This document shows, piece after piece, positions 50,843 through 63,198 of a stretch of DNA of 64,000 bases. Position 1 is the stretch's first letter, and every line of letters starts with the position of its first letter. Origin of the DNA: Algiphilus aromaticivorans DG1253 (GTDB lineage Bacteria > Pseudomonadota > Gammaproteobacteria > Nevskiales > Nevskiaceae). The notes under the pieces were generated by a model. That model was not told where the DNA came from and searched no databases. It was given only the letters and a program-made list of their open reading frames with translations. The position numbers and the translations under genes were made by a program. Location: the NCBI RefSeq assembly GCF_000733765.1, contig NZ_JPOG01000001.1, positions 248,001-312,000 on the forward strand, written 5' to 3'.

Positions 50843-50855
50843 CAATCAATTATTG
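50843..50855. promoter_or_regulatory. Small dyad CAAT-N5-ATTG between LysR and aceE
   Basis: Short inverted repeat in the AT-rich divergent region upstream of aceE, next to the LysR start. LysR-type proteins bind such interrupted dyads. Weak evidence on its own. Confidence 0.35.
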
Positions 50856-50927
50856 CAGTTTCATATATTGGACATATCGGATTGCTGCCGTCTACAGTCA
50901 TCGCATCAGCAGCGCGAGGAGACAGCG

Positions 50928-53593
<2,666 letters not shown>

Positions 53594-53594
<1 letters not shown>

Positions 53595-55270
53595 TGGCCA
53601 GCGCAAAGCCCGTCAAGATTCCGGATATCGGCGGCTTCAGTGATGTGCCGGTCATCGAGGTGCTGGTCAGCCCCGGTGACACGGTGGAGGCCGAGCAGCC
53701 GCTTATCGTTCTGGAGTCCGACAAGTCGACGATGGAGATCCCGGCGCCGGAGGCCGGCACCATCGAGTCCGTGGCGCTGAAGGTGGACGACAAGGTTTCC
53801 GAGGGCGACACCATCTGCCAGATCGTGCCGGCTGAAGCCGCGTCCCCCGCGCCTGCGCCGGAGCCCGAAGCGGCGCCCGCTGCCGAGCCCGAGCCCGAGC
53901 CGTCGCCCGAGGCGGCCGCGCAGCCGGAGCCGGAGCCGGAGCCGGCGCCGGCCGCCGAGGCCAGCGTGGAAACCGTGCGCGTCCCCGACATCGGCGACTT
54001 CACGGACGTCCCGGTCATCGAGGTGCTGGTCAGCGCTGGCGATAGCGTCGAGGCCGATCAGCCGCTGATCGTGCTGGAGTCCGAGAAATCGACGATGGAA
54101 GTGCCGTCGCCGAAGGCCGGCACGGTCGAAAGTGTCAGCGTCAAGGTCGACGACAAGCTCAAGGAAGGCGACGCCATCTGCGAGCTGCGCGTGGCCGGCA
54201 AGGCTGAGGCCGCGCCCGCTCCGCAAGCTGCTGCGCCCGAGCCTGCGCCCGCGGCGAAGAAAGAAGCCTCGCCGGCTCCCAAGAGTGAGGACAAGGCGGA
54301 TTCCCAGGCGGAAGAGGAAGAATCCGCCGCGCAGGGTCCGCGCATGCGCCCGGAAGGCGACGGCCAGCTCATTCCGCACGCCAGCCCCGCCGTGCGCCGC
54401 TTCGCGCGCGAGCTGGGTGTCGATCTCGCGCAGGTCAGCGGCAGCGGTGCCAAGGGCCGCATCCTGCGCGAGGACGTCCAGCAGCATGTGAAGTCGGCCA
54501 TGAAGGCCGCGCCGCAGGCTGCGGCCGCAACGGCCGGTGGCGGCGGCGGTCTGCCGCAGCAGCCGGAGGTCGACTTCAGCCGTTTCGGGCCGGTGGAGGC
54601 GGTGGATCTTGCCCGCATCCGCCGCATCTCGGCGCAGAACCTGCACCGCAACTGGCTGCTGGTGCCGCACGTCACGCAGACCGACAGCGCCGACATCACC
54701 GATCTGGAAGCCTTCCGCAAGGCCGAGTCGATGCCCGAGCAGAAGCTGACGCTGCTGCCCTTCCTGATCAAGGCCGTGGCGCAGTGCCTGCGCGACTTCC
54801 CGGACTTCAACGCCTCGCTGTCCGCCGACGGCCAGCAGCTGATCCGCAAGCAGTACTGCCATATCGGCTTCGCGGCCGATACGCCGAACGGTCTGCTCGT
54901 GCCGGTGATCCGCGACGTCTGGAGCAAGTCGGTCACTGAGCTGGCCGCCGAGAGCGGCGCGCTGGCGGCGAAGGCGCGCGACGGCAAGCTCAAGCCTGAC
55001 GAAATGCAGGGCGGCTGCTTCTCGATCTCCAGCCTGGGCGGCATCGGCGGCAGCCATTTCTCGCCCATCGTCAACGCCCCCGAGGTCGCGATCCTCGGCG
55101 TGTCCAAGGCGTCGATGCAGCCAGTCTGGGATGGCGAAGCCTTCCAGCCGCGCCTGATGTGCCCGCTGTCGTTGTCCTACGACCACCGCGTGATTGATGG
55201 TGCGGCCGCGGCGCGCTTCATCGTGCAGCTGAAGACACTGCTGGAGGACCTGCGTCGGCTGCTGCTCTGA
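53594..55270 (+). CDS. aceF: Pyruvate dehydrogenase E2, dihydrolipoyl acetyltransferase
   Basis: 558-aa E2 with two lipoyl domains joined by Ala/Pro/Glu-rich linkers: lipoyl Lys at about 44 (ESDKSTMEIP) and about 165 (ESEKSTMEVP). An E3/E1-binding domain follows (HASPAVRRFARELGVDLAQVSGSGAKGRI), then the catalytic core with the H-x3-D active site HRVIDG (His at about 531). It forms the complex core and passes acetyl to CoA. It is coupled to aceE. No lpd (E3) gene follows; instead a toxin-antitoxin pair lies on the other strand, so E3 must come from elsewhere. Confidence 0.97.
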
Positions 55271-55696
55271 TCAGCGCTCAAGGAAGGGGTTGACGATGCG
55301 CAGTTGCTCGATCTGCTGGCCGTGCTGCATGTCTTCCGAGAGCAGGTGTTGGCAGCCCGCCTCGAGGGCTGCCGCGATGATCAGGCTGTCGTAGAAGCCG
55401 TAGCCGTAGCGGGTCTGAATCTCCAGCGCGCGACGGTACAGCGCGTGACTCGGCATCACCCGGCACAAGGGCTGCAGGACCGAGTCCAGGAAGCGCCGCG
55501 CCTGGTCCAGATCGGCCGGGACGGGGATTTTCCGCGTGATGACCGCCAGGCTTTCCTGGACCACCTGATAACTGATCAGGGCGGAGCCGCTGCGGAGCGC
55601 GAATTCGATCAGCTCGGCCGCGCGTCGCGACTTGTCGGGCGCGCGCTCGTCGAAGAGATAGACGAGGAGGTTGGAGTCGATGAAATCAACGCTCAT
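55271..55696 (-). CDS. PIN-domain toxin, VapC-like
   Basis: 141-aa PIN ribonuclease-like toxin. Acidic active-site residues are recognisable: D in FIDSNLLVYLFDE, E in VVQESLAVITRKI, D in YGYGFYDSLIIAAALEAGCQHLLSEDMQHG. Such toxins cut specific RNAs. The start ATG 55696 overlaps the antitoxin stop by 11 nt, giving coupled translation. It is convergent with aceF, with its stop next to the aceF stop. Confidence 0.9.
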   Translation of the reverse strand: MSVDFIDSNLLVYLFDERAPDKSRRAAELIEFALRSGSALISYQVVQESLAVITRKIPVPADLDQARRFLDSVLQPLCRVMPSHALYRRALEIQTRYGYGFYDSLIIAAALEAGCQHLLSEDMQHGQQIEQLRIVNPFLER

Positions 55697-55910
55697 TCAT
55701 TTCTTCGCGCGTGAACTTGCGCCCACCCGTGCGCAGTTTGCCGCGCAGTTCCTCGACGACCGCCATGGCCTGGTCGGCTTGCTGCTGCCGGCGTGTGTAA
55801 TCCTCAAGCCAGCGCCGGAACTCCTCGTTCAGAGTGGTGTTGCGCGCCCTCGCCTGGGCGCGGGCGGTCTCGATGAGGTGCTCATCGGCGCTGAAGGTGA
55901 TGTTGCGCAT
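55686..55910 (-). CDS. Antitoxin partner of the PIN-domain toxin
   Basis: 74-aa small protein MRNITFSADEHLIETARAQARARNTTLNE...., with a ribbon-helix-helix-like N-terminus and a basic/acidic C-terminal tail ending in REEMNER. Its size and position, immediately upstream and overlapping the PIN toxin, fit an antitoxin of the RHH class. ATG 55910 is taken as the start; a 12-codon upstream extension overlaps the operator dyads. It probably binds the dyads at 55928-55957 for autorepression. Confidence 0.82.
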   Translation of the reverse strand: MRNITFSADEHLIETARAQARARNTTLNEEFRRWLEDYTRRQQQADQAMAVVEELRGKLRTGGRKFTREEMNER

Positions 55911-55976: not shown

Positions 55977-56882
55977 TCAGGTTTCTTCGAGTTGCGCGAA
56001 GGCCTCGGCCAGATGGTCGAGCAGCGCGCGCACGGCCGGTAATTGACCGCGCTTGGAGGGGTAGACGGCATGGATCAGGTGCGGCTTCGGGCCCCAGCCG
56101 TGCACGGGACGCAGCAGCGCGCCGCTGCGCACTTCGTCCAGGACGATGATGGTTGGTAGCTGCACGACGCCGATGCCGGCCACCGCGGCCGTGCGCAGCG
56201 CCACCATGTCGTCGGTGACCAGCCGCGGCTGATGCCGGATGCGTGCCTGCTCTCCTTCCGGCCCGTAGAGATCCCAGCGATGATCCGGCCGGGGCGGACC
56301 GAGATCGAGGCTGGGTAGCTCGCCTAGCTGCGCGGGGTGGGATACCGGCCCGCAGCGCGCGAGCAGCTCCGGGCTGGCCACCAGGCACTGGCTGCGCTGG
56401 GCGAGCACCTTGAGGAAGAGATCGCTGTCGTCGAGTGGCGGGTAGCGGACACGGATAGCGAGGTCGAAACCTTCGGCGATGACATCGACACGACGATTGG
56501 TCGCCTCCAGATGCAGCGTCACTTTCGGGCAGGTGGCCTGGAAGTCCGCCAGCATCGTGCCAACTTGAGCGTGCAGCAACGCGATGGGGCAGCTGATGCG
56601 CACCACGCCGCGGGGCTCGGTACGCGTCAGCGCGATGGCTTCCTGCGCCGCTTCGGCCTCCACCAGCATCGCCTTGCAGTGCGCGTAGTACGTCTGCCCC
56701 AACTCCGTGACCGAGAAGTGTCGCGTTGAGCGCTGAATCAGGCGCACGCCCAGACGCTCTTCCAGCGCCGCGACGCGACGGCTGAGCTTGGACTTCGGCA
56801 GCCCGAGCGCTCGGCCGGCCGACGCGAAGCCGCCGTGCTCGACGACGCGGGCGAAGTAGTAGAGGTCGTTCAGGTTTTCCAC
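55977..56882 (-). CDS. LysR-family transcriptional regulator, divergent from the pirin operon
   Basis: 301-aa LysR protein. HTH: LNDLYYFARVVEHGGFASAGRALGLPKSKLSRRVAALEERLGVRLIQRSTRHFSVTELG, then an effector-binding domain. Its N-terminus resembles the DsdC/YhjC-type group that often regulates pirin-type or quinone-related genes. Start GTG 56882 is preferred because GGAACA lies before it and the family N-terminus (M/VENLNDL) begins there; the open frame upstream to 57332 is not LysR-like. It diverges from pirin 1. Confidence 0.9.
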   Translation of the reverse strand: MENLNDLYYFARVVEHGGFASAGRALGLPKSKLSRRVAALEERLGVRLIQRSTRHFSVTELGQTYYAHCKAMLVEAEAAQEAIALTRTEPRGVVRISCPIALLHAQVGTMLADFQATCPKVTLHLEATNRRVDVIAEGFDLAIRVRYPPLDDSDLFLKVLAQRSQCLVASPELLARCGPVSHPAQLGELPSLDLGPPRPDHRWDLYGPEGEQARIRHQPRLVTDDMVALRTAAVAGIGVVQLPTIIVLDEVRSGALLRPVHGWGPKPHLIHAVYPSKRGQLPAVRALLDHLAEAFAQLEET

Positions 56883-56958
56883 GGCGATATTGTTCCAAAA
56901 ATAAGACGCACTATCTGAATATTGCCGTCTACCGGGGGGATTGTCGCGCCTATATCTT

Positions 56959-57002
56959 CTTTCTCCGAAACAACGGTCGCAATGCGGCCTTAGCGGAGAA
57001 AG
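56959..57002 (+). promoter_or_regulatory. Inverted repeat overlapping the pirin 1 ribosome site
   Basis: CTTTCTCCG (56959-56967) and CGGAGAAAG (56994-57002) form a perfect 9-bp inverted repeat with a 26-nt loop. The right arm includes the GGAGAAAGG Shine-Dalgarno of pirin 1 (ATG 57006). In RNA this could hide the ribosome site; as DNA it could be the LysR operator. Confidence 0.55.
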
Positions 57003-57005
57003 GAT

Positions 57006-57881
57006 ATGAAAGCGATTCTCGGCGTTTACAGCACCCCTGAAAGGCACTGGGTCGGCGACGGTTTTCCGGTGCGCACCCTTTTCGCGCCGGATACCCACGG
57101 CCAGCAGCTCAGCCCCTTCCTGATGCTCGATCACGCCGGGCCGCGCGACTTCGTGCCGGGCATCCGACCACGCGGCGTCGGGGAGCATCCGCATCGCGGC
57201 TTCGAAACGGTGACCATCGTCTACGAAGGCGAGGTCTCGCATCGCGACTCCACGGGCGCGGGCGGCGACATCGGCCCCGGCGATGTGCAGTGGATGACCG
57301 CCGGCGCCGGCATTCTGCACGAGGAGTTCCACTCGCAGGCCTTCACGCGTCGCGGCGGCAGGCTGGAAATGGCGCAGCTATGGGTCAACCTGCCCGCGAA
57401 GGACAAGATGACCGTGCCGGGCTACCAGACGCTGCTTGCGGCCGATATTCCCGAGGTCGCGTTGCCGGATGCGGCTGGCCATCTGCGGGTCATCGCTGGC
57501 GTTTATGAGGGCAATGCCGGCCCGGCGCGTACCTTCAGCCCGATGGATGTCTGGGATCTGCGTCTGCAGCCCGGCGGACTGACGCGGCTGCCGGTGGCCG
57601 ATGGCCGCACGCTGGCGGTGGTCGTGCTGCACGGCACCGTCGAGATCAACGGCGTGGAGCTTGCGCGCGAGGGTCAGCTCGTTGTGCTGGCGCGCGACGG
57701 TGCCGATGTCCAGATTGAAGCCAACGACGTGGCCACCCTGCTGCTGCTATCCGGGGAGCCCCTCGACGAGCCGATCGCCGCCTACGGGCCCTTCGTCATG
57801 AACAGCGACGACGAGATCCGTCAAGCGATCACCGACTTCCGCAGCGGCGACTTCGGGCGTATTGCGCCTTCGCCGGCCTGA
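57006..57881 (+). CDS. Pirin-family protein 1
   Basis: 291-aa bicupin. The N-terminal cupin carries the metal ligands in EHPHRGFETVTIVYEGEVSHRDSTG and WMTAGAGILHEE. Pirins bind Fe; bacterial homologues such as YhhW have quercetinase activity, others interact with pyruvate dehydrogenase E1 or act as redox sensors. It is the first gene of a four-gene plus-strand unit (second pirin, OsmC, quinone reductase), with a LysR divergent on the left. The ribosome site lies in an inverted repeat. Confidence 0.93.
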   Translation: MKAILGVYSTPERHWVGDGFPVRTLFAPDTHGQQLSPFLMLDHAGPRDFVPGIRPRGVGEHPHRGFETVTIVYEGEVSHRDSTGAGGDIGPGDVQWMTAGAGILHEEFHSQAFTRRGGRLEMAQLWVNLPAKDKMTVPGYQTLLAADIPEVALPDAAGHLRVIAGVYEGNAGPARTFSPMDVWDLRLQPGGLTRLPVADGRTLAVVVLHGTVEINGVELAREGQLVVLARDGADVQIEANDVATLLLLSGEPLDEPIAAYGPFVMNSDDEIRQAITDFRSGDFGRIAPSPA

Positions 57882-57904
57882 TGATCGTCAGCATGATGGT
57901 GGTA

Positions 57905-57927
57905 CCGGCGGGCTCGGGGCCCGCCGG
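57905..57927 (+). other. Hairpin between the two pirin genes
   Basis: Perfect 9-bp stem CCGGCGGGC/GCCCGCCGG (57905-57913 with 57919-57927) with loop TCGGG, 24 nt after pirin 1. There is no T-run. It could lower readthrough into pirin 2 or stabilise the pirin 1 message. Confidence 0.5.
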
Positions 57928-58020
57928 ACGTCGATGGCCCGCCGTGCGTGCGACCGGCATGATGCGGAGCATTCGCCGCAGTCGTGATCTTCGTTTCGCC
58001 ACGCAATAGGAGAAGAAATC

Positions 58021-58980
58021 ATGAGCAGTGTGATGGAGCAGGACCAGCTGTCCGTCTCGACGGATTGCCCGGAGTGTCCTGGTCGCCCGGTGGCCGAGCG
58101 TATCGCCTCGCGGGAGAGCCAGCTCGGCGAGGGGCTGCTGATTCGCCGTGCGCTGCCTTCGAAGCAGCGGCGAATGGTGGGCGCCTGGTGTTTTCTCGAC
58201 CACGCCGGGCCGATGGAATACGGCCCTGGCGAAGGCATCGCGGTGGGCCCGCACCCGCACATCGGGCTGCAGACCTTTAGCTGGATGATGGAGGGCGAAA
58301 TTCTGCATCGCGACAGCCTGGGCGTAGAACAGATCATTCGCCCCGGGCAGGTGAATCTGATGACCGCCGGTCGCGGCATCGTGCACAGCGAGGACGCGGT
58401 CAGCGATGCGCCGGGCCGCATCCATCTCGCCCAGCTCTGGATTGCTCTGCCCGATGCCGAGCGTCATTGCGAGCCGGCTTTCGAGCATTATCCAGAGCTT
58501 CCCGTCGTTGATTCCAACGGATTCCGAACGACGGTGCTGGCCGGTTCGGCACTGGGCCGGACCTCCCCGGCCAGGGTCTACACGCCATTAATTGGTCTCG
58601 ATCTGGAAAGCGCCGGTGCGACGCGCACGGCGCTGCCGCTGGAGCCCGCCTTCGAGCACGCCGCGCTCGTGCTGCGCGGGGCTGCAACAGTCGCAGGCGA
58701 GACGCTGGAGCCAGGATCGCTACTTTATCTCGGCACGGGCCGCCAGACGCTGGATGTTTCCTGCGACGAGGCCGCGCAGATTCTCATTGTCGGCGGCGTA
58801 CCTTTCGAGGAGGAAATCCTCCTTTGGTGGAACTTCGTCGCGCGCGAGCCCGCGGAGATCGAGGAAGCCGTCGCCGACTGGAACGCGGGCCGGCGCTTTG
58901 CCCGCGATGTGGGGAGCCCCTCGAAGCCGCTGCGTGCTCCAGATCCGGCCGGCATCCGACTGAAGGCAGGCAGATCATGA
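58021..58980 (+). CDS. Pirin-family protein 2
   Basis: 319-aa pirin paralogue of the upstream gene. The N-terminal cupin shows GPHPHIGLQTFSWMMEGEILHRDSLG and MTAGRGIVHSED with the metal-binding His/His/Glu set, and a characteristic RRALPSKQRRMVGAWCFLDHAGP stretch. ATG 58021 is preceded by AGGAGAAG. Its stop overlaps the OsmC ATG (ATGA, 4 nt). Together with pirin 1, OsmC and the quinone reductase it appears as one operon. Confidence 0.93.
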   Translation: MSSVMEQDQLSVSTDCPECPGRPVAERIASRESQLGEGLLIRRALPSKQRRMVGAWCFLDHAGPMEYGPGEGIAVGPHPHIGLQTFSWMMEGEILHRDSLGVEQIIRPGQVNLMTAGRGIVHSEDAVSDAPGRIHLAQLWIALPDAERHCEPAFEHYPELPVVDSNGFRTTVLAGSALGRTSPARVYTPLIGLDLESAGATRTALPLEPAFEHAALVLRGAATVAGETLEPGSLLYLGTGRQTLDVSCDEAAQILIVGGVPFEEEILLWWNFVAREPAEIEEAVADWNAGRRFARDVGSPSKPLRAPDPAGIRLKAGRS

Positions 58981-59381
58981 AGACCATCGCCTCGCTCACC
59001 ACGCGCAGTAGCGGCGCGCCCTGGCGTGCCGACATGCAAACCGGCGCCCACGCCCTCGTCGCCGACGAGCCCGCGACAGCCGGCGGGCAGGATGCCGGCC
59101 CGTCGCCCTACGGCTACATCCTCGCCGGTCTCGGCGCATGCACGGCCATGACGCTGCGCATGTACGCCCAGCGCAAGGGCTGGGAGCTGGGCGAGGTGGC
59201 GGTCGCGCTGACGTTGCGCAAGGACGATGAAGGCGCCACCCATATCGCCCGAGAGCTGACCTGCAGCGCTCCCCTCGACGAGGAACAATGGCAGCGCCTG
59301 CTCGACATCGCCGGCAAGACGCCCGTGACCCGGACCCTGATGGCGGGCAGCGCCATCACCACGCGGCGCGCGGCCCCGTGA
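58977..59381 (+). CDS. OsmC/Ohr-family protein
   Basis: 134-aa OsmC-fold protein with the two cysteines expected for peroxiredoxin-type activity: LGACTAMTLRMYA and ELTCSAPLD. Such proteins reduce organic hydroperoxides with lipoyl or thiol reductants, though some OsmC-like proteins bind other ligands. Its start (ATGA) is coupled to pirin 2, and its stop (GTGA) is coupled to the next reductase, a very tight operon arrangement. Confidence 0.9.
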   Translation: MKTIASLTTRSSGAPWRADMQTGAHALVADEPATAGGQDAGPSPYGYILAGLGACTAMTLRMYAQRKGWELGEVAVALTLRKDDEGATHIARELTCSAPLDEEQWQRLLDIAGKTPVTRTLMAGSAITTRRAAP

Positions 59382-60343
59382 AGGCGTTGCGCTTTGCGGC
59401 TACCGGTAGCCTTGAGGAACTGCGGTTGGAGAATGCGGCGGAGCCCGAGGTAGGGCCCGGGGAGGCATTGGTGGTCGTGAAGGCGGCGGGACTGCATCCC
59501 AGCGATGTGAAGAATGTACTTGGCCGCTTCCCCGACACGAGCTTGCCGCGTATACCGGGACGCGATGGCGCCGGTGTGGTGCTGCGCGGGCCGAAGGCCT
59601 GGGTCGGTCGAGAAGTCTGGTTCAGTGGCAGCGAGCTGGGTTTCCGCCGCGACGGGAGTCATGCGCAGCGTATTGTGCTTCCGGTGGCAGCGCTCTCGGC
59701 CAAGCCGGAGTTGCTCTCCTTCGAGCAGGCGGCGCGTTGCGGCGTGCCGCTGACCACGGCGCGGGACGCCCTTGAGCGCACCGGGGTGCGGCGAGGTACT
59801 CGGCTGCTCGTGATTGGTGCGGCGGGCGCGGTGGGTCGCGTCGCGCTGCAGCTCGGCCGGGCGCGCGGAGCCCAGGTGCTGGCTGCGGCACGCCGGCCCG
59901 AGCAATTGACGGCTTTGGCGGGCGCCGGTTTCGATACCGTCTCGTTGGTCGAGGGCGCGCCTCCGCTCGCTGATCAGGCGCAGAGACGCTTCGGTGACGG
60001 TGCCGATGTCGTCTTCGACACGACCGGATTCTGCTTGCCGGCGGCCATCGCGGCGCTATCGATCGGCGGCCGCGTCGCGGTCATCGCGGCGCCCGACGGG
60101 GGGCTCGTCGAGGTGCCGGTGCTCGACCTCTATCGGCGCGCCGGCAGCATTGTCGGTGTCAATTCCCTGTTGCACGACAGCGCGGCCTGCGCGCGCATGC
60201 TGGACCGCTTTTCCGCCGCGATCGATGGCGGGCAACTCGTCCTCGACCCGCAGCCCGCGACATGCACCCTCGGGGATGGGGTGGCGGCCTACGCATCGCT
60301 TGCCCACGGCGAAGCGAACGAGCTTGTCCTGCGGATGGCGTAA
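59378..60343 (+). CDS. Zinc-independent quinone-oxidoreductase-like MDR protein
   Basis: 321-aa medium-chain dehydrogenase/reductase without the structural or catalytic zinc ligands (no CxxCxxC cluster). The N-terminal GroES domain (VKALRFAATGSLEELRLENAAEPEVGPGEALVVVKAAGLHPSDVK) and Rossmann segment LLVIGAAGAVGRVALQLGRARGAQVLAAARR place it among quinone oxidoreductases. The start is GTG 59378, overlapping the OsmC stop by 4 nt. It is probably NADPH-dependent, reducing quinones or enones. It is convergent with another MDR gene 28 nt away. Confidence 0.9.
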   Translation: MKALRFAATGSLEELRLENAAEPEVGPGEALVVVKAAGLHPSDVKNVLGRFPDTSLPRIPGRDGAGVVLRGPKAWVGREVWFSGSELGFRRDGSHAQRIVLPVAALSAKPELLSFEQAARCGVPLTTARDALERTGVRRGTRLLVIGAAGAVGRVALQLGRARGAQVLAAARRPEQLTALAGAGFDTVSLVEGAPPLADQAQRRFGDGADVVFDTTGFCLPAAIAALSIGGRVAVIAAPDGGLVEVPVLDLYRRAGSIVGVNSLLHDSAACARMLDRFSAAIDGGQLVLDPQPATCTLGDGVAAYASLAHGEANELVLRMA

Positions 60344-60371
60344 CGGCGCGTACCCGCTGCCGAGGTTAGGA

Positions 60372-61361
60372 TCAGACGGTGACGACCACCTTGCCGAATT
60401 GGGCGTTGGACTCCATGTAGCGGTGGGCCTCGACGATGTCGTCGAGGCTGAAGCGCTTGTCGTCGACGGTCGGCTTGAGATGGCCGCTCTCCAGGCCTTC
60501 GGTGACGAAGCTCTTGCCGCGCGCGAAGCGCTCGGGGTCGGCGATGACCTCGAAGAGGGTATAGCCGCGAAGAACCAGCCCCTTCTGCAGCGCCGGCATC
60601 AGCGGGAAGGGCGTGGGCGCGCCGGCGAGGCCGCCGTAGAGGAAGATCATTCCACCCGGGCCGGTGGCCTTGGCCAGTGATTCGACCTGTGGCCCGGCAA
60701 CCGGGTCGAAGACGACGCGTGCACCTAGCCCGCGGGTGATGCGGTCGACCTCTGCCGCCAGATCCTGGTCACCGGTGACGACGTGCGTGGCGCCGGCGGC
60801 CTTCAGCGCGTCGACCTTCTCGGGCCCGCGCGTCGTGGCGATCGGTATCGCCCCCTGCTGCAGCGCGATCTGGATGGCAGCCAGGCCGACGCTGCTGGAG
60901 GCCGCCGGGATGATGACCGCCTCGTCCTGCCGGATCTGGGCGATGTCGATCAGCGCGCCGAAGGCTGTCAGGTAGGGCATCCAGATCGCCGCCGACTGCA
61001 CGGCATCAAGGCCTTCCGGCCGATGCGTGCAGGCGTAGGCTGGCACGATGGCTTCCTCGCCGTAGACGCTGTAGTCGTTCATGGAAAAGGCCGGGATGAT
61101 GCAGATGGCGTCGCCGGGGGCGTAATCCGTGACGCCTTCCCCGGTGGCTACGACGGTTCCGGAGGCTTCGTAGCCGACGCCCGATGGGAGATTCGGTGCT
61201 TCCAGGTAAGCGCCGTAGCGAAACATGATCTCGGCGCGATTCAGTCCGATGGCCTCGATTCTGGCGCGGAGTTCGCCGGCGCCGGGCTGGCCGATGTCGG
61301 CGTCCTCGATCTTCAGGACTTCGGGGCCACCGGTCTCGTGAAAGCGGACGACCTTGCTCAT
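60372..61361 (-). CDS. Quinone-oxidoreductase-like MDR protein (NemR/NemA operon)
   Basis: 329-aa MDR enzyme with MSKVVRFHETGGPEVLKIEDADIGQPGAGELRARIEAIGLNRAE and the NADPH-binding VIIPAASSSVGLAAIQIALQQGAIPIATTRG, no zinc-site cysteines. Quinone/enone reductase is the likely role. Its ATG lies 42 nt after the old yellow enzyme stop on the same strand, after a GAAGGAGAGA ribosome site, so it is probably the third gene of the NemR-like operon. Confidence 0.92.
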   Translation of the reverse strand: MSKVVRFHETGGPEVLKIEDADIGQPGAGELRARIEAIGLNRAEIMFRYGAYLEAPNLPSGVGYEASGTVVATGEGVTDYAPGDAICIIPAFSMNDYSVYGEEAIVPAYACTHRPEGLDAVQSAAIWMPYLTAFGALIDIAQIRQDEAVIIPAASSSVGLAAIQIALQQGAIPIATTRGPEKVDALKAAGATHVVTGDQDLAAEVDRITRGLGARVVFDPVAGPQVESLAKATGPGGMIFLYGGLAGAPTPFPLMPALQKGLVLRGYTLFEVIADPERFARGKSFVTEGLESGHLKPTVDDKRFSLDDIVEAHRYMESNAQFGKVVVTV

Positions 61362-61403
61362 GGTTTCTCTCCTTCGGTTTCGGCTGGATTCGGTCAGGTT
61401 TGT

Positions 61404-62507
61404 TCAGGCCGCTGCGCTATCGGCCAGTGCCGGGTAGTCGGTGTAGCCGTGCTCATCACCACCGTAAAAGCTTTGTGGATCCGGTGTGTTGAGCGCCGCG
61501 CCGGCAGCGAGGCGTTCGGGCAGATCCGGATTGGCGATGTAGGCGCGGCCGAAGGCCACTGCGTCGGCGTCACCGGCAGCGATGGCGGTCTCGGCGCTGG
61601 CCGCGTCGTAGTCGGCGTTGACTACCAGTCGGCCCCTGTAGAGCGGCCGGAAATGCCGCGTCGGAATGGCGTGTCCGCCGTGGCGGATATCGGCTTCCAC
61701 GGGTTCCAGCAAGTGGAGATAGGCCAGATCGTAGTCGTTCAGCTTCTTCACGAAGCTGTCGAAAGTGGTCTCGGGGTCCGAGTCGCGCATGTCGTTGAAG
61801 GTGCCGCTCGGTGACAGCCGGATGCCGACGCGACTGGCGGGCCAGACCGACAGCACGGCTTCCAGAACGGCCAGTGGCAGCCGCATGCGTTTCTCAAGGC
61901 TGCCGCCCCAGTCGTCGTGACGCTGATTCGTGCCGTCGCGCAGGAATTGATCCAGCAGATAGCCGTTCGCGTTGTGGATCTCGACACCGTCGAAGCCGGC
62001 GCTTCGCGCATTCTCGGCAGCCTGCCGATATTGCTCGATGATGCCGGGAATCTCCTCGGCTTCAAGGGCGCGTGGCGTTACGAAGTCCTGCGGTCCGTCG
62101 TAGGTCAATGCCTTTCCCGCGGGGCGAACCGCGCTCGGGGCGACCGGTAGCTCGCCCTTCGGTTGCAGCGAGGGGTGCGATATGCGGCCGACGTGCCAGA
62201 GTTGCATGAAGATGCGCCCGCCGGCTGCGTGTACCGCGTCGGTAACGCGCTGCCAGCCCGCGATCTGCGCTTCGCTGTGGATGCCCGGCGTGTTCGGGTA
62301 GCCGATCCCTTCCGGAGCGATCTGGGTAGCTTCGCTGATGATGAGCCCCGCCGATGCGCGCTGTTCGTAATAGCGTATGTTCATCGCTTGCGGCACGTTG
62401 CCGGTGCCGGCGCGGTTGCGCGTCAGTGGTGCCATCAGCACCCGGTTGGGCATGGCGATGTCGCCCAGTTGCAGGGGCTCGAAGAGGTACGGGTGGGGGG
62501 TGCTCAT
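61404..62507 (-). CDS. Old yellow enzyme, alkene reductase (NemA-like)
   Basis: 367-aa FMN-dependent ene-reductase. Starts MSTPHPYLFEPLQLGDIAMPNRVLMAPLTRNRAG; the FMN/active-site pieces are FMQLWHVGRISHPSLQPKG, FDGVEIHNANGYLLDQFLRDGTNQRHDDWGGSLEKR (H-x2-N pair) and the C-terminal DADAVAFGRAYIANPDLPERL. It reduces activated C=C bonds, maleimides and nitro compounds with NADPH. ATG 62507 has AGGAGT. A NemR-type operator precedes it (62538-62553). Confidence 0.94.
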   Translation of the reverse strand: MSTPHPYLFEPLQLGDIAMPNRVLMAPLTRNRAGTGNVPQAMNIRYYEQRASAGLIISEATQIAPEGIGYPNTPGIHSEAQIAGWQRVTDAVHAAGGRIFMQLWHVGRISHPSLQPKGELPVAPSAVRPAGKALTYDGPQDFVTPRALEAEEIPGIIEQYRQAAENARSAGFDGVEIHNANGYLLDQFLRDGTNQRHDDWGGSLEKRMRLPLAVLEAVLSVWPASRVGIRLSPSGTFNDMRDSDPETTFDSFVKKLNDYDLAYLHLLEPVEADIRHGGHAIPTRHFRPLYRGRLVVNADYDAASAETAIAAGDADAVAFGRAYIANPDLPERLAAGAALNTPDPQSFYGGDEHGYTDYPALADSAAA

Positions 62508-62537
62508 GTATGGACTCCTGTTTCTTCTGAATCCGAG

Positions 62538-62553
62538 TAGACCGGTCGGTTTA
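62538..62553. promoter_or_regulatory. NemR-type box 2, TAGACC-N4-GGTTTA
   Basis: TAGACCGGTCGGTTTA lies between the TetR stop (62572) and the old yellow enzyme start (62507). It fits the E. coli NemR box pattern TAGACC-N4-GGTCTA with one substitution, and shares TAGACCGGTCG with the site upstream of the TetR gene at 63210. It suggests an extra promoter for nemA. Confidence 0.7.
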
Positions 62554-62571
62554 GGCCGGGGCAAATAAAAA

Positions 62572-63198
62572 TCAGGCCCGCGCAAGCACGCGTTCGAAGA
62601 AGGTGTCGCGGAAGGCCTGCATTGGTTGCGGGTCGCGGGTGACCTTGGCGCGCAGCACCGCGCCCTCCCAGCCGACGAGGAGGAACTCGGCGAGTTGCTC
62701 CGGCTCGCTGTCCGGGGCGAGATCACCGCGCCGGCGCGCCGTCGCAAGGCATTCGGCGAAGCGTGCTGTCCAGCCCGAGAAGACTTCCTGCAGGCGCTCG
62801 CGGAATGCAGCGTTCTGCCCGGCGAGTTCCTGCGCGAGATTGCCCATCAGGCAGCCTCGCGCGAAATCGCCGGCGCCCATCTCCGTGATGCCAGCCTCCA
62901 GAAAGTTGCGCAGCCGCTCAAGCGGTGCGACGGCATCGTCGTCGAGGATGCGGTCGAGCTTGTCCTGATAGTGGGCGTCGAAATGCTCGATGACGGCGAG
63001 CCCGAAATCTTCCTTGCTGGCGAAGTAGTAATAGAAGGAGCCCTTGGGGACGCCTGCGGCGTCGAGGATCGCCTTGATGCCGGTGTTGTTGTAGCCCTGC
63101 GTACTGATCAGCTCCGCGCCCACCTGCAGAAGCTGGCTGCGCGTATCGGCGCGCCCGACTCGCGCTGGGCAGGAGCTGTTGGCTGTATCAGCGTTCAT
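62572..63198 (-). CDS. TetR-family regulator, NemR-like
   Basis: 208-aa repressor. HTH: RSQLLQVGAELISTQGYNNTGIKAILDAAGVPKGSFYYYFASKEDFGLAVIEHF, which matches the NemR/AcuR style. Conserved cysteine near the end of the ligand domain region (ARGCLMGNLAQELA), the Cys position used for electrophile sensing in this group. The start ATG 63198 follows a NemR-type dyad at 63210-63224. First gene of an operon with old yellow enzyme and MDR reductase. The gap 63225-63490 shows no gene. Confidence 0.9.
   Translation of the reverse strand: MNADTANSSCPARVGRADTRSQLLQVGAELISTQGYNNTGIKAILDAAGVPKGSFYYYFASKEDFGLAVIEHFDAHYQDKLDRILDDDAVAPLERLRNFLEAGITEMGAGDFARGCLMGNLAQELAGQNAAFRERLQEVFSGWTARFAECLATARRRGDLAPDSEPEQLAEFLLVGWEGAVLRAKVTRDPQPMQAFRDTFFERVLARA

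Follow-up and report, generated by a model that had tools for sequence, protein, structure and literature searches.

A LysR-linked pirin-pirin-OsmC-oxidoreductase locus of Algiphilus aromaticivorans, probably for handling quinone-like electrophiles, with an OsmC protein that lacks the resolving cysteine

The stretch of DNA analysed here (the window) comprises 64,000 nucleotides of Algiphilus aromaticivorans DG1253 (assembly GCF_000733765.1, contig NZ_JPOG01000001.1, positions 248,001 to 312,000). It contains four genes coding for two pirins, a protein of the OsmC family and an oxidoreductase of the medium-chain dehydrogenase/reductase (MDR) type, next to a divergent gene for a LysR-type regulator. 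The features of the locus, numbered from the first letter of the window, are the following:

55977..56882, minus strand: LysR-type regulator with a GTG start, divergent from pirin1 (PF03466 and PF00126).
56883..57005, no strand: divergent intergenic region of 123 nt, the presumed LysR operator/promoter.
57006..57881, plus strand: pirin1, 291 amino acids (Pfam Pirin and Pirin_C).
57905..57927, no strand: perfect inverted repeat CCGGCGGGC/GCCCGCCGG in the gap between pirin1 and pirin2, without a T tract.
58021..58980, plus strand: pirin2, 319 amino acids (Pfam Pirin and Pirin_C).
58977..59381, plus strand: OsmC-family protein, 134 amino acids (PF02566, 64.5 bits against a cut-off of 27.5).
59378..60343, plus strand: MDR oxidoreductase, 321 amino acids, GTG start (PF08240, ADH_N, and PF00107, ADH_zinc_N), enone/quinone-reductase-like.

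The open reading frames and the Pfam matches confirm the four genes named in an earlier note on this DNA, as well as the ATGA overlap that joins pirin2 to OsmC and the GTGA overlap between OsmC and the MDR gene. The same note placed pirin1 just upstream of the others. It does lie upstream on the same strand, but it is not overlapped, and the 139 nt between pirin1 and pirin2 carry a hairpin. The inverted repeat has perfectly matching 9-bp arms and a 5-nt loop; when the dinucleotides of the gap were shuffled 2000 times, nine of the results contained a repeat that long. The hairpin may be an attenuator, an RNA stabiliser or a module boundary. The LysR gene starts 123 nt from pirin1 on the opposite strand. 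Neither a sigma-70-like promoter nor an intrinsic terminator was detected at 56700-60500 by a simple consensus scan, which is a weak test.

The 139-nt gap and its strong hairpin would also suit a loose neighbourhood, in which pirin1 is transcribed alone beside LysR while pirin2, OsmC and the MDR gene belong to a distinct stress operon driven by another promoter. The modules do occur apart in related genomes, since locus L196 lacks pirin2 and loci L138, L139 and L037 lack pirin1. However, at 13 of the 58 related loci described below the pirin2 homologue likewise has another pirin gene on its strand less than 2.5 kb away, and the scan, weak as it is, found no promoter in the gap between the two pirins; we consider this arrangement rather unlikely.

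Both pirins keep the HPH...HxE motif together with the Pirin and Pirin_C domains. In pirin2 the motif is formed by H78, H80, H122 and E124, which align with the HPH and HAE of human pirin chains, and in pirin1 by H61, H63, H105 and E107, positions assigned by analogy with the alignment of pirin2 and human pirin. We take these residues to be metal ligands in both proteins. The nearest PDB chains are 7te5 and 6d0p for pirin1 and 6d0g for pirin2. Three pirins are present in the genome, two of them at this locus.

Quinone reductase activity had been proposed for the fourth gene. The MDR family assignment holds (Pfam), but the protein misses the quinone-reductase cut-offs of NCBIfam, with 86.9 bits against 296.8 for PIG3 (TIGR02824) and 34.3 against 348 for PRK10754 (NF008024). 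Its best PDB matches are 2eih (an alcohol dehydrogenase), 4ida, 5k1s and 1iyz. Going by its sequence, 'quinone reductase' would be only a label for this protein. The LysR protein matches NCBIfam NF011573 (PRK14997) with 418 bits, above the cut-off of 380, and its nearest PDB chains are 7trw and 7trv. A divergent LysR gene stands beside the pirin at 7 of 10 fetched loci whose pirin is at least 52% identical to pirin1; its product is 54-65% identical to the window LysR at five of these and 34% identical at two. No clear dyad that could serve as a LysR operator emerged from the alignment of nine upstream regions.

The OsmC protein keeps the peroxidatic cysteine (C55), and its resolving cysteine is replaced by T115, the site reading TPVT; in most OsmC relatives the second cysteine lies within CPVH- or CPIH-like motifs. 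Residues C55, T115, P116, V117 and T118 are invariant in 17 aligned members of the TPVT clade (the window protein included, the others being 36-63% identical to it), and the only remaining cysteine, C96, is not conserved across the clade. The protein scores under the Ohr and OsmC-Se cut-offs of NCBIfam, and the nearest solved chain, 9wo1, retains the resolving cysteine. The glutamate column near the active cysteine, as assigned here, holds Gly in the window protein and Asp or Glu in most of the clade, otherwise Gly, so no weight is put on it; the arginine column is poorly aligned.

In a tree of 106 sequences, built with the Thr/Cys column included and with the duplicate row L004 (the window's own) dropped, the 26 threonine forms consist of one clade of 24 (98/91), with the window protein inside, and an independent pair. 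The sister group, joined at 86/85, comprises 10 rows with both cysteines and includes a Pseudomonas aeruginosa protein. A same-strand pirin gene lies within 1.5 kb in 9 of the 10 sister-group rows and in 16 of the 24 rows of the threonine clade, the latter figure being biased upwards because many TPVT rows come from loci picked for their pirin. In this tally the pirin is upstream of OsmC in all 16 threonine cases and downstream in all nine cysteine cases; the exceptions, beyond the tally, are L085, L263 and L264, where a cysteine-type OsmC gene is downstream of the pirin. For the remaining class of sequences the count of nearby pirins is at least 1 of 72 with L085, which the tally script had not located, instead of 0 of 71. 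TPVT-type OsmC also directly follows a pirin in a record of Acinetobacter baumannii.

Two side observations concern the same family. The independent pair (L023 and L024) represents a second origin of threonine at the resolving-cysteine position, in another OsmC lineage. At the Frateuria locus L037 (4069-6405) a pirin gene is situated between two OsmC genes; the OsmC encoded upstream has both cysteines, the one encoded downstream is of the TPVT type.

For Ohr and OsmC, two conserved cysteines and reduction by a lipoyl system are described in a review (PMC8945050). The absence of the resolving cysteine therefore argues against the label of an Ohr-type peroxidase, and leaves unsupported the peroxidase activity formerly attributed to the protein, although it might still be a one-cysteine, thiol-resolved peroxidase. 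TPVT is fixed across alpha- and gammaproteobacteria, which would make selection likelier than neutral decay. A tentative proposal, which we regard as possible but still doubtful, is that the TPVT clade, whose genes frequently neighbour those of pirins and flavin reductases, arose by neofunctionalisation of OsmC, its members having one active-site cysteine and a new chemistry, different from that of the two-cysteine Ohr-type peroxidases. Such proteins could be, for instance, glutathione-resolved hydroperoxide reductases, or their thiol could take up quinone intermediates or pass them between reductase and pirins. Of all the features of the locus, only this fixed change in a protein encoded next to pirins is both new and testable.

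Conservation of the neighbourhood was studied at 58 loci carrying a pirin2 homologue, namely 40 matches from the same order (the best 39 plus L177) and the best 18 from the class. L177 was taken over two slightly better matches since its OsmC was already known, and two further loci picked for their OsmC were excluded. Flanks of 2.5 kb around the pirin2 homologue contain a same-strand OsmC gene at 14 of the 58 loci (13 of 57 without L177). OsmC and a second pirin occur together at five, and at four of the 58 the order is pirin-pirin-OsmC. The other neighbours within 2.5 kb are LysR (11 of 58), flavin reductases (8), DoxX (6), YcaC-type hydrolases (4), Kef-type transporters (3) and a glutathionyl-hydroquinone reductase (1); neither a flavin reductase nor a YcaC-type hydrolase match was found within 2.5 kb of the window pirin2. 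These families were first named by eye and then checked with Pfam on one example each (Flavodoxin_2, DoxX, LysR, Isochorismatase, Na_H_Exchanger plus TrkA_N, and FMN_red).

At 27 control loci of other OsmC-family genes none of these neighbours was present except one glutathionyl-hydroquinone reductase. However, four loci had been taken out of this control by hand, namely L085 and three that belong to the two OsmC clades (L038, L039 and L080). Once L085 is restored, pirin and LysR are each present at 1 of 28 loci, which is the fair figure. When the count starts from OsmC instead, 13 of 85 genomes of the order (the window included) contain an OsmC scoring above 130 bits; 11 of these genes are beside a same-strand pirin and two beside an FMN reductase. 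In nearby genomes with pirin-pirin-OsmC (L140, L145, L146 and L150) a flavodoxin-fold reductase and/or DoxX gene lies upstream, the DoxX protein of L146 being 53% identical to Escherichia coli YqjF. The flavin reductases, DoxX, the isochorismatase-type (YcaC) hydrolase and the Kef-type transporter near the relatives thus back the quinone reading offered in the earlier note. A Kef-type transporter gene comes after the pirin/OsmC genes at L138, L139 and L200, a position that would fit an electrophile response.

The earlier note did not recognise the locus as a described system, which proves too strong a statement. An operon of this kind has already been reported from P. aeruginosa, namely PA1202-PA1205 (PMC2796861, PMC4051601). 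According to PMC2796861 (see also PMC5521831), this putative operon is strongly raised by BexR expression and small-molecule detoxification has been suggested for it, while the passages of PMC4051601 state that PA1204 possesses quinone oxidoreductase activity. The two sources conflict in direction, since PMC4051601 reports the genes as up in a bexR deletion. In a plasmid record of P. aeruginosa, equated with PA1202-PA1205 by gene content, the order is LysR / ycaC-OsmC-FMN reductase-pirin-SRPBCC-kefB. As in the window, closely spaced pirin and OsmC genes share a strand and are accompanied by a divergent LysR gene and a reductase gene; pirin2 and the window OsmC are 51% and 42% identical to the pirin and OsmC of that cluster. 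However, PA1202-PA1205 has one pirin, OsmC ahead of it, a YcaC hydrolase, a reductase of the FMN type instead of an MDR protein, and an OsmC with both cysteines.

Other relatives share the pirin-pirin-OsmC order. Novosphingobium sp. UBA1948 (L085) shows a divergent LysR gene and pirin-pirin-OsmC on one strand, but its OsmC keeps the second cysteine, no MDR match is present and its pirins are 30% and 41% identical to those of the window. L145 and L150, and also L140, share with the window both the pirin-pirin-OsmC order and a TPVT-type OsmC; they differ in having a flavodoxin-fold reductase (PF02525, AzoR-like by eye) and DoxX upstream, a LysR of another cluster and no MDR gene.

Several partial likenesses come from the literature, each cited here from excerpts. 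In E. coli, YhaJ mediates the hydroquinone induction of yhaK, the inducing activity remains when yhaK is mutated, and yqjF is activated by YhaJ in response to DNT and hydroquinone (PMC5031710). The yhaJ-yhaK pair (with yqjF-yqjG) resembles the window in being a divergent LysR/pirin-like pair, and is hydroquinone-responsive, but has no OsmC or MDR gene annotated beside it. Research on the secreted quinone HGA in Legionella pneumophila included an RNA-seq comparison in which the pirin-acpD operon lpg2286-2287 showed raised expression. By its description this operon is likened to the window in combining a pirin with a reductase (an azoreductase) in a context of quinone stress; it differs in that just pirin and acpD are named. 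Among the proteins of Acinetobacter DW-1 listed only for cells grown with acetate plus phenol are a pirin and an OsmC-like protein of 14 kDa (PMC5501837), and Pseudomonas fluorescens In5 facing R. solani raises pirin-family genes, two azoreductases and a glutathionyl-hydroquinone reductase (PMC5557065). In the excerpts of the open-licence literature no description of a pirin-pirin-OsmC-MDR set was found. The kind of operon is thus known, and the combination of two pirins, a TPVT-type OsmC and an MDR oxidoreductase is new.

The favoured reading, with a probability of about 0.6, is that the locus would be a LysR-linked operon for quinone-like electrophiles, made up of a LysR/pirin1 module, a pirin2-OsmC module and an MDR gene recruited in this lineage. 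The two modules recur elsewhere, and the four genes beside the regulator most likely help to handle toxic quinone-like chemicals. Of the dedicated pathway under LysR envisaged in the earlier note, what stands would be a cassette for quinones or aromatic electrophiles beside a LysR gene. The ATGA and GTGA overlaps, the partly conserved context and the precedents in other bacteria speak for this reading. The genes with their overlaps and families, the ligand motifs, the lost cysteine and the partial conservation are observed directly; we infer co-transcription of pirin1 with the rest, the inducer, the substrates and every reaction step. The LysR protein would sense quinones or enones, coming from the breakdown of aromatic compounds or from plants, fungi or other microbes, and would then activate the genes. 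The MDR protein would reduce the quinone or enone with NAD(P)H, filling the role of the flavin reductases of the relatives, and the quinols so formed could be substrates that the two metal-binding pirins oxidise or open. OsmC, with its single active-site cysteine, may act on a reactive intermediate or hydroperoxide, and a small thiol, rather than a second OsmC cysteine, would close its cycle.

A number of observations weigh against this reading. The 139-nt gap makes a separate transcript for pirin1 possible. No OsmC was found within 2.5 kb at 44 of the 58 loci, 10 of the 58 being cut within that distance of the pirin by the end of the contig or locus. The association weakens beyond the order: a sample of 398 genomes of the phylum was ranked by OsmC, and of its 30 best loci 12 (the window included) are of the TPVT type, and their flanks of about 1.5 kb contain a pirin in three cases, a flavin reductase in one, a YcaC-type gene in two and none of these in six. 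Only two of the 11 TPVT loci beyond the window therefore have a same-strand pirin, the cysteine-type loci of the same set having a pirin in 2 of 18 (L263 and L264), and a further set of four TPVT loci divides into two with and two without a pirin. The pirin-pirin-OsmC part of the gene order, whose survey the earlier note had proposed, does recur, but the four-gene order does not, since no MDR gene like either of the two in the window was found at any of the 58 loci. The eight nearest MDR homologues in the 85 genomes of the order (54-59% identity) have no pirin, OsmC or LysR gene in flanks of about 1.5 kb; the MDR gene was therefore probably recruited in this lineage, and these homologues were rejected as proof of four-gene conservation. 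Finally, orthology with YhaJ/YhaK was rejected, the window LysR being 34% identical over only 73 amino acids and pirin1 giving no match to YhaK at E 0.01, so the E. coli case is an analogy only. In line with this, the E. coli YhaJ box (TCA-N7-TGA) is absent from 56883-57005 and from the corresponding regions of eight relatives.

The same proteins could instead constitute a catabolic cassette for an aromatic or flavonoid substrate, with the pirins as quercetinase-like dioxygenases and the MDR protein as an enone reductase. The metal motif kept in both pirins would agree with it, as would the description of YhhW as a quercetinase in the excerpt of PMC5031710 and the catabolic-looking genes beside the pirin of a Cupriavidus pBB2 relative (VOC, fumarylacetoacetate hydrolase family and FAD monooxygenase). 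However, the four-gene unit holds no uptake or ring-fission gene and the P. aeruginosa relatives are accompanied by a reductase and KefB. We regard this possibility as unlikely, although it is weakly tested by the present comparison, in which most of the remaining genes around the related loci are unannotated. Handling of oxidised lipids or flavonoids, which the earlier note had mentioned, finds no evidence here.

The pirins might also act chiefly by partnering other proteins as redox sensors, for instance as modulators of pyruvate dehydrogenase (PDH), OsmC and the MDR protein being general stress genes carried along. Genes of the aceE-aceF type (PDH E1/E2) are indeed located at 50853-55270, on the same strand as the pirins, and end 1.7 kb upstream; a pirin-PDH E1 interaction is indicated by the title of reference 34 in PMC5557065. 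However, an aceE or aceF homologue is present at 0 of 69 pirin/OsmC or reference loci (with flanks mostly of about 5 kb, some shorter), for which reason a conserved aceEF context was rejected, and the recurring neighbours of the relatives are quinone/electrophile-type genes, within the chosen reference set that was searched for. This explanation is therefore considered very improbable.

Between aceF and LysR there is a PIN-domain gene (55271-55696, minus strand, PF01850), overlapped by the preceding short ribbon-helix-helix-like open reading frame (about 55686-55910, without a Pfam match). The two look like a toxin-antitoxin pair of the VapBC type, the antitoxin being assigned by eye. Downstream of the operon, a convergent cluster on the minus strand (60372-63195) codes for a second MDR protein, an old yellow enzyme and an AcuR-like TetR regulator:

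60372..61361, minus strand: second MDR oxidoreductase, PIG3/quinone-oxidoreductase type, a convergent neighbour outside the operon (PIG3 model 189.1 bits against a cut-off of 296.8).

The old yellow enzyme is near the N-ethylmaleimide reductase model (397.5 bits, just below the cut-off of 403) and the TetR gene scores 224 bits against 247 with the AcuR model. The surroundings would therefore also resemble electrophile handling, and 60372-63195 is likely to be a second electrophile-response cluster adjoining the pirin operon.

Pirins are widespread, and their role in bacteria is poorly settled. The recurrent association of pirins with OsmC and an exchangeable reductase offers a way to ask whether these proteins act sequentially on quinones, and the fixed Cys-to-Thr change provides a single residue to study in an otherwise well-studied family of peroxidases.

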